From: Noviherbaspirillum suwonense
GTDB taxonomy: Bacteria > Pseudomonadota > Gammaproteobacteria > Burkholderiales > Burkholderiaceae_D
Length of the DNA: 64,000 nt
Assembly: GCF_900182955.1 (NCBI RefSeq)
Contig: NZ_FXUL01000007.1
Span: 62,001-126,000, forward strand
Reading direction: 5' to 3'
Shown here: positions 42,819-43,694 of the stretch, one piece after another
Numbering within the stretch: position 1 is the first letter of the stretch
Layout: every line of letters starts with the position of its first letter
Made by a program: the position numbers and the translations under genes
Notes under the pieces: generated by a model
Seen by the model: only the letters and a program-made list of their open reading frames with translations
What the model was told of the DNA's origin: nothing
The model's database searches: none

Positions 42819-43029
42819 TCGACAGCCTGGGCTGCAGGACGTCACGCTTGATCGGGATAGAGCCGATTGCTTGCCGCCGGTGAATGCCGCTGGCCGATGC
42901 GCGCACCGGTGGACCCCACCTACCCGGTTGTACCAGAACTGTTCATTCCTGGTGCGTCGCACAAACTCCTACAACGCGTTGAGCAATCCGCTGACTTCCA
43001 ACTCGACCGTTTTTCGATAGGATGCACCT

Positions 43030-43092
43030 GTCTCCTCCGTTCCCTGCGAATGGATTCAAACCCGCTGCGGCTCCGCCCGGCGGGTTTTTTTT
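43030..43092 (+). ncRNA. Predicted ~63-nt small RNA with anti-Shine-Dalgarno 5' end
   Basis: Transcript inferred from a -10-like TAGGAT (43018-43023) to the U8 tail at 43092. It begins GUCUCCUCC, has AUGGAUU at 43050-43056, and ends in an intrinsic terminator whose stem is AAACCCGC/GCGGGUUU. It shares the same three elements, in the same order, with the opposite-strand candidate at 43246-43310. The 5' CUCCUCC is a classic anti-Shine-Dalgarno seed. No -35 box is convincing. The 5' end is an estimate. Confidence 0.6.
43058..43092 (+). terminator. Intrinsic terminator of the plus-strand small RNA
   Basis: AAACCCGC (43058-43065) pairs with GCGGGTTT (43080-43087), and the run of eight T ends at 43092. 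Strong rho-independent signal. Confidence 0.85.
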
Positions 43093-43144
43093 CGCCAGTG
43101 CATGCTGCGCTGCACATAGACACACGCTTGTTTTAGATGCATCA

Positions 43145-43222
43145 TCCCCCAAAATCCAGACCCGAGAGCTGGGGACGAGAGAAGACAGGGAAACCCGCAT
43201 CGGCATCGATCGCGGGTTTTTT
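43145..43222 (+). ncRNA. Tentative third transcript between the small RNA pair
   Basis: A strong terminator at 43191-43222 has no open frame before it. A weak promoter pair (CTGCAC 43110-43115, 17-base spacer, TTAGAT 43133-43138) would start a ~78-nt RNA. It contains AGAAGACAGGG (43180-43190), complementary with one mismatch to the region around the 5' ends of both flanking small RNAs. It could be a sponge, or instead the reverse of a decayed third copy. Confidence 0.3.
43191..43222 (+). terminator. Intrinsic terminator
   Basis: AAACCCGCATCG pairs with CGATCGCGGGTTT with one bulge around a short GCAT loop, followed by T6 (43217-43222). Confidence 0.85.
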
Positions 43223-43245
43223 CTTTGGGCTAGCGGAAACCGGCC

Positions 43246-43280
43246 AAAAAAAAAGCCCACCGGAAGAATCACGGCGGGCT
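43246..43280 (-). terminator. Intrinsic terminator of the minus-strand small RNA
   Basis: On the minus strand AGCCCGCCG, an eight-base loop, CCGGTGGGC, then nine T (43254-43246). Confidence 0.85.
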
Positions 43281-43310
43281 AAATCCATCCTTTGGGAGGG
43301 TGGAGGAGAC
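43246..43310 (-). ncRNA. Predicted ~65-nt small RNA, sibling of the plus-strand copy
   Basis: Minus-strand transcript from a TATAGT -10 box (43322-43317) to the U9 tail at 43246. It begins GUCUCCUCCACC, has AUGGAUU in the middle, and ends in a terminator stem GCCCGCCG/CCGGTGGGC. These match the order and sequence of elements in the candidate at 43030-43092, so the two look like homologous siblings pointing at each other. The -35 is weak (TTACTG, 17-bp spacer). Start is estimated. Confidence 0.62.
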
Positions 43311-43694
43311 AGGGCCACTATAGCGAGTTTCCCCGGGTACAGTAAATTTCCATTCCCAATACCAATTATTCGATTTGTGAATGACGGTGGCAGGCCGATC
43401 TGCTAGAGGGGGCGGAAGGCATAACGCGCCACTACGCGTTGAATCTTTGATCCTGCTGCGCGACATCGTCCACGCACATTGCGACCCCGGCCCGACCCGC
43501 GTCTCCTCCCGGACAGTTTTCGCTCTCCAAGCCCAGGCATTTTCCCTTGAAGCGCGTCTGGACAACAGTTACCCCGCTTTAACCGGTCATTCCCGGGCGG
43601 TAGGGTAGACTCAGGCACGCCTTTAAAATTGTTTCTTTGTAGAAACTGCGGCGTCTTGCCTGATTGACTGACCATATTTGCGTTTTAGGAATCG

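Follow-up and report, generated by a model that had tools for sequence, protein, structure and literature searches.

Two similar, convergent units in an intergenic region of the window, i.e., the whole stretch of 64,000 nucleotides from Noviherbaspirillum suwonense that was analyzed, raise the question of which kind of small RNA they represent, how they are related to each other and whether they are the only genes at this locus. A sequence-only reading had described them as a homologous, inverted duplicate pair that matched no family known to it and whose 5' ends are anti-Shine-Dalgarno sequences, as in small RNAs reported to block ribosome binding sites. The two convergent units, here termed sRNA1 and sRNA2, are borne out at their positions by the sequence itself, by matches to the Rfam family RF02278 and by the predicted folds (Table 1); their homology is confirmed by matches of both over the full RF02278 model, and the character of their 5' ends also stands. 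The previous inventory is thus correct for these two units but overlooked a third candidate, M, lying between them.

Table 1. Features of the locus, with positions in the window and the basis of each assignment.
Feature	Position	Strand	Basis
TCCTACA, upstream motif common to sRNA1-type copies	42967..42973	+	by eye
sRNA1, RF02278-type double-hairpin small RNA	43030..43092	+	Rfam span 43029-43093; cmscan, fold
M promoter-like site TAGACA-17-CATCAT	43117..43145	+	scan, alignment
M, candidate third small RNA gene, proposed sponge	43151..43223	+	copies, relatives, duplex energies
M box 1 AATCCA, complement of UGGAUU in both sRNAs	43153..43158	+	alignment, duplex
M GGGGAC, can pair with GUUCCC	43171..43176	+	cofold, sRNA alignment
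M box 2 GAGAAGACA, complement of UGUCUCCUC with one A.C mismatch	43179..43187	+	alignment, duplex
sRNA2, RF02278 double-hairpin small RNA	43247..43310	-	Rfam span 43247-43311; cmscan, fold
sRNA2 promoter-like site TTTACT-18-TATAGT	43317..43346	-	promoter scan

Family assignment and copies of sRNA1 and sRNA2

With 54.3 bits (E 5.4e-10, full model, local cmscan), sRNA2 exceeds the gathering score of 50 and is a member of RF02278, the Betaproteobacteria toxic sRNA family, while sRNA1 (43.3 bits, E 3.2e-7, full model) stays below this cut-off and is a sub-threshold homologue, not a curated member. As RF02278 matches both units, a new sRNA family is rejected and the earlier statement that no described family fits has to be dropped. 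Both RNAs combine the double hairpin, the terminator and the anti-Shine-Dalgarno 5' end typical of RF02278. Each is predicted to form two hairpins, the second being the terminator with its U run, and to leave the first six bases unpaired; the fold energies of -28.3 kcal/mol for sRNA1 (z -4.3) and -26.0 kcal/mol for sRNA2 (z -5.0) were equalled by 0 of 200 shuffles in either case. The sequence GTCTCCTCC starts both sRNA1 (43030, +) and sRNA2 (43302-43310, -), and two elements are conserved in the family, UGUCUCCUC at the start and UGGAUU closing the first hairpin. A sigma-70-like, well-placed promoter precedes sRNA2 according to the promoter scan, and only a weak -10 element can be discerned by eye for sRNA1, where the upstream TCCTACA is a possible activator site. 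The one remaining GTCTCCTCC in the 64 kb lies in the same intergenic region at 43501-43509 (+), where no sRNA was hit. Besides, sRNA2 (43247-43311, -) shows weak cross-matches to the Rfam families anti-hemB (26.8 bits) and ncS54 (24.2 bits), which may be distant kin of RF02278 in a wider superfamily.

In their own genome, sRNA1 and sRNA2 are two among about 15 RF02278 copies, with 30 matches at E<=10, 15 at E<=3.2e-5 and six passing the gathering score. A covariance-model search finds RF02278 at E<=1e-5 in 132 of the 145 sampled genomes of the bacterial family to which the window belongs. Moreover, most of the 300-base block bearing both sRNAs occurs again in the same genome at C18:21456-21748 with 86% identity, and the block is found in three genomes of the same genus with 79, 73, and 70% identity. 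In all four comparisons the alignment ends within about 100 bases of the block, the exceptions being one 50-base match lying elsewhere and one 38-base match. The C18 copy also includes sRNA1, as do G002 (Noviherbaspirillum soli SUEMI10, identified by exact shared sequence; L182, L135), G003, and G001, and the conserved stretch between sRNA1 and sRNA2 has further copies in the own genome at C12, C49, C3, C27, and C1. Hence, the RF02278 scores, the paralogues and the recurring block rule out a chance resemblance of the two units, in agreement with the earlier reading. The proposed origin by local inverted duplication, however, is unsupported because of the about 15 paralogues, the differing upstream motifs and the 95% identity of sRNA2 to the copy at C12:87875, which is closer in the alignment than sRNA1.

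By eye, several RF02278 copies of the own genome (L001-L007, L009-L011, L016, L019) fall into two upstream classes, an sRNA2 type with ATTCAYRAA and GATAT motifs and an sRNA1 type marked by TCCTACA and an element resembling CTGACTT, which suggests that the two sRNAs are controlled separately. The TCCTACA/CTGACTT class takes in the copies with M downstream in the window and at C18, C3, and C49, but not the one at C1. A different arrangement is present in the genus g22, with two tandem RF02278 sRNAs about 210 nt apart (G104:C1:620393 and 620611; likewise in G137, G122, G150, G024, and G163).

The candidate RNA M and its distribution

The 5' end of M is deduced from the promoter-like site and its 3' end from an intrinsic terminator in the sequence. 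In aligned copies, a TAGACA-like hexamer is separated by 17 bases from one resembling CATCAT; AAAATC(C/T)A comes next, then a middle part of variable sequence and a stretch similar to GAGAAGACAGGGAAA, and the terminator hairpin with its T run is last. Among the copies of the same genus, the -35 and -10 hexamers are largely conserved and the spacer is variable. Neither M in the window nor nine M loci of other genomes gave an Rfam match at gathering, the best weak match over the window's M being ctRNA_p42d with 20.8 bits (gathering 50). M is probably a new, conserved and apparently undescribed RNA. Its interpretation as a degenerate minus-strand sRNA was rejected, as no terminator is visible by eye after GGATTTT and the fold of 43098-43200 (-) does not surpass that of shuffles (z 0.43), and so was a gene leader, since in the window the convergent sRNA2 comes next.

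The distribution of M was followed with two covariance models, R1 built from 13 M copies and the broader R3 with 47 rows, some of them duplicates, both of which give optimistic E-values. Within the family, R1 finds places in 46 of 145 genomes at E<=0.01, and R3 yields 69 places at E<=1e-4, distributed over 37 of 145 genomes and 20 of 44 genera. A strict M pattern is matched in nine named records, belonging to Noviherbaspirillum (three), Herminiimonas (three), Janthinobacterium (one) and unclassified Oxalobacteraceae (two). RF02278 is present at E<=1e-5 in each of the 37 genomes with R3 places, and an R3 place was found in 0 of the 13 genomes lacking RF02278, a co-occurrence which is weak on its own because 132 of 145 genomes carry this sRNA family. 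Among those 13 genomes, G114 gives a weak R1 match (26.7 bits, E 0.006). In the own genome, 7 M places stand against 15 RF02278 sRNA copies. In two genomes of the same genus, a pair of divergent M genes is separated by about 400 nt, with one sRNA convergent to one M (L134 1037-1105 (-) and 1488-1556 (+); L131 520-588 (-) and 973-1041 (+)).

Outside the family, 300 genomes of the order, a sample including at least 10 of the window's own family, gave R1 places in 7 genomes at E<=0.001 and R3 places in 9 genomes at E<=1e-4. The nine R3 places resemble bare terminators by eye, only one of them (L196) passes the complementarity test described below, and a separate sRNA-type match is found beside 0 of 9, the matches merely overlapping the places themselves. 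Six weak places inside the family have the same bare-terminator appearance (L108, L188, L191, L205, L207, L209).

Strong conservation of M is seen in the genus g28, where six genomes are identical at 67 of 67 positions. Mean identity before M is 88.7% for the nearest 50 bases, 81.3% for the next 100 and 42.0% for the next 150, and after M 55.2% for the first 63 bases and 74.1% for the next 130. In each of these six genomes a single, stand-alone M is accompanied by 9-11 RF02278 sRNAs. At the thresholds used, both RF02278 and M are absent from a seventh g28 genome, whose size is 1.7 Mb.

Complementarity of M to neighboring sRNAs

The elements AAUCCA and GAG(A/G)AGACA of M are the complements of UGGAUU and UGUCUCCUC, respectively, in antiparallel order. 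Of 27 copies from other genera, 20 have GAGGAGAC as box 2; of 21 from the genus of the window, 10 have GAGAAGAC, which introduces one mismatch. It might be speculated that this A.C mismatch limits cleavage by RNase III or ribosome binding to M. In the alignment, both boxes are kept while the middle of M diverges. Testing 67 of the 69 R3 places (G069:C19 and G139:C15 left out) against the consensus sRNA domain, the duplex was equalled by at most 5 of 500 shuffles for 55 places. As these are homologues retrieved with a model containing the boxes, and six of them are identical, they show that the boxes are kept rather than giving 55 independent cases. The 55 places are distributed over 31 of the 145 family genomes, with Noviherbaspirillum, Herminiimonas and other Oxalobacteraceae among those named.

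Among the 12 places failing this test is M of the window itself (89 of 500 shuffles as good). The others are the C12 copy (49/500), the C18 copy (18/500), L087 (8/500), L079 (7/500), the minus strand of L135, which is the reverse strand of a true M (16/500), and six probable bare terminators. Against the neighboring sRNA1, the duplex of the window's M reaches -29.7 kcal/mol, with 3 of 300 shuffles as good, and the C18 copy reaches -30.1 kcal/mol with neighboring sRNA1 (1 of 300). Hence, M of the window matches strongly only its neighbor sRNA1 and is not significant against the consensus. After accounting for self-folding, cofolding in the window (M taken as 43152-43224) yields ddG values of -17.0 kcal/mol for sRNA1:M, -10.0 for sRNA2:M and 0.0 for sRNA1:sRNA2. 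GUUCCC, the possible partner of the GGGGAC in M, is present in sRNA1 and absent from sRNA2. When scanning the window, 17 of 11630 stretches match or beat M in pairing with sRNA1, several of them being the opposite strands of the sRNAs themselves, and 171 of 11630 pair with sRNA2 as well as M does. In a set of 42 M sequences paired with their neighbor or the consensus, with a cutting rule that shortened some neighboring sRNAs (e.g., L037, L094, L097), 36 were equalled by <=3 of 300 shuffles, at a median z of -4.3.

An RF02278-type sRNA, as detected by the separate model R2, lies within 300 nt of 36 of the 67 M places and is missing from this distance in 31. The 13 R1 seeds account for nine of the 36 and are biased for adjacency, some having been located via the sRNA; the 54 remaining places account for 27, one of which is the reverse strand of another place. 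From about eight sRNA copies per 5 Mb, simple arithmetic gives a chance expectation for adjacency of well under one. With respect to arrangement, the complementary places show sRNA followed by M on the same strand (14), M followed by sRNA (15) or a convergent orientation (6).

Some M places have two neighboring sRNAs, in which case the same-strand upstream one was used for pairing. In an all-against-all comparison of 23 M/sRNA pairs, the true neighbors had a mean rank of 8.7 versus 12 expected (permutation p 0.008); with 12 pairs found later, i.e., 35 in total, the mean rank was 11.9 versus 18 expected (p 0.0001). Less redundant sets of 30 and 18 pairs gave p 0.0005 and p 0.016, respectively, the latter without C18, G002a, G002b, G002c, and C49; when keeping C49, which is a strong counter-example and no plain duplicate, p was 0.019 for 19 pairs. 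Nine of the 35 pairs fall into the lower half of the ranking, with C49 (34), G138 (34), L202 (32), and G005b (31) at the bottom. The partner test is support rather than proof, since its statistics ignore kinship between genomes and shared ancestry within a genome. The C49 copy (L077 793-858, G000:C49) has a damaged sRNA seed, UGACUCCUCC, with M still downstream and pairing poorly.

Proposed role of M and comparison with known systems

The reading considered likely is that the locus forms a three-gene, all-RNA cassette in which M acts as a dedicated sponge for RF02278-type sRNAs. Judging from published relatives, the 5' GUCUCCUCC of sRNA1 and sRNA2 would cover the ribosome binding sites of target mRNAs. 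Encoded between the sRNA genes, M would be expressed from its own predicted promoter to its own terminator, and its 5' domain, for the most part complementary in antiparallel orientation to the domain of the first sRNA hairpin, would pair with the sRNAs and mask the seed, possibly leading to their decay. Capture of the sRNAs by M would in turn free the targets. From these sequence features we infer that M is transcribed and pairs with the sRNAs in the cell, and likewise the direction and outcome of the regulation. Several results weigh against this reading, namely the box 2 mismatch in the window's genus, the 12 of 67 places failing the complementarity test, the window's own M among them, the 171 window stretches that equal M in pairing with sRNA2, the poorly ranked pairs of the partner test, the 31 places lacking a nearby sRNA, the lone M set against 9-11 sRNAs in g28 and the weak R1 match of G114.

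That M might instead be an ordinary trans-acting sRNA with mRNA targets of its own, its likeness to an RF02278 complement merely reflecting descent from an inverted copy without present function, is unlikely. Such an origin would be in line with a 5' domain that reads as a reverse-complemented first hairpin, with the many M standing alone (31/67) and with the mismatch that box 2 retains in 10 of the 21 copies from the genus of the window. However, M has retained both boxes despite divergence of its middle, complementarity to the consensus is found at 55 of 67 places, and neighbors out-pair non-neighbors. Even less probable is an untranscribed, terminator-rich intergenic relic, i.e., a chance or decaying repeat, which would fit the bare-terminator appearance of the 9 weak places outside and the six inside the family but hardly the largely conserved -35 and -10 hexamers around a variable spacer, the identity of M at 67 of 67 positions in six genomes and the location of 36 of 67 places beside sRNAs.

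Likewise quite improbable, although not to the same degree as the relic, is an RNA-only addiction module resembling toxin-antitoxin systems, with the sRNAs poisoning translation and M as the antidote. The naming of RF02278 for growth inhibition in E. coli and the attenuated growth of Burkholderia cenocepacia overexpressing ncS27 (PMC5688073) speak in favor of such a module, as does the recurrence of the block in other surroundings. Against it, many sRNA copies have no M nearby (15 sRNAs versus 7 M places in the own genome), members described in the literature regulate metabolism (PMC10987360, PMC11722255), and overexpression of S17S impaired E. coli only modestly (PMC11722255). A wider version of the sponge reading is tentative and rather doubtful, namely that M represents a new family of dedicated sponges which coevolved with multi-copy, toxic anti-Shine-Dalgarno sRNAs as a portable, all-RNA regulator/antagonist cassette, toxicity being checked by an adjacent mimic of the target sites.

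Known members of RF02278 are ncS03, ncS05, ncS27, and ncS62 of Burkholderia, bdhR1, and Hsnc059/063/086/107 of Herbaspirillum, with which both units share the full-model match, the double hairpin, the GUCUCCUCC 5' end and the presence of several copies per genome; unlike these, sRNA1 is below the Rfam cut-off and some copies here have the partner RNA M beside them. The sibling sRNAs NmsR, NgncR_162, and NgncR_163 of Neisseria, with CU-rich anti-Shine-Dalgarno seeds, adjacent genes and metabolic roles, are by description a functional parallel. In Burkholderia, where the members are termed double-hairpin or toxic sRNAs, three to five double-hairpin RNAs occur per genome (PMC5688073), in contrast to the about 15 copies found here, and ncS27 influences both the transport and the utilization of amino acids and carbohydrates (PMC10987360). 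Bordetella pertussis S17, described as similar to RF02278 sRNAs and with a 5' end resembling bdhR1, represses targets post-transcriptionally, enhanced by Hfq, at sites that should disrupt ribosome binding (PMC11722255). Likened here by description only, it is presented in excerpts from the same source without mention of an M-like partner.

Among RNAs that antagonize sRNAs, SroC derives from an mRNA, and in CJnc180/CJnc190, presumably the cis-encoded system likened to M in the following, the antagonist is encoded on the strand opposite its target. The proposed sponge M would resemble SroC, which pairs with GcvB and counters it (PMC9973317, where the mentions of 'sponge' concern these two RNAs), and the cis-encoded antagonist of PMC8687705 in being an RNA that counters an sRNA. 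Unlike both, M would be encoded by a separate gene that lies next to the sRNA genes rather than opposite them, and would mimic the complement of a whole sRNA domain. A published sponge of RF02278 sRNAs was not found in the open-access literature, and excerpts from published work on these sRNAs did not explain what keeps them under control.

RF02278 sRNAs are common in this bacterial family and are reported to restrain growth and metabolism. If true, a conserved sponge would be an off-switch for them and would help to explain how about 15 copies of an anti-Shine-Dalgarno RNA are tolerated in one genome, and the sRNAs together with M would provide a simple system for studying the coevolution of an sRNA and its antagonist.
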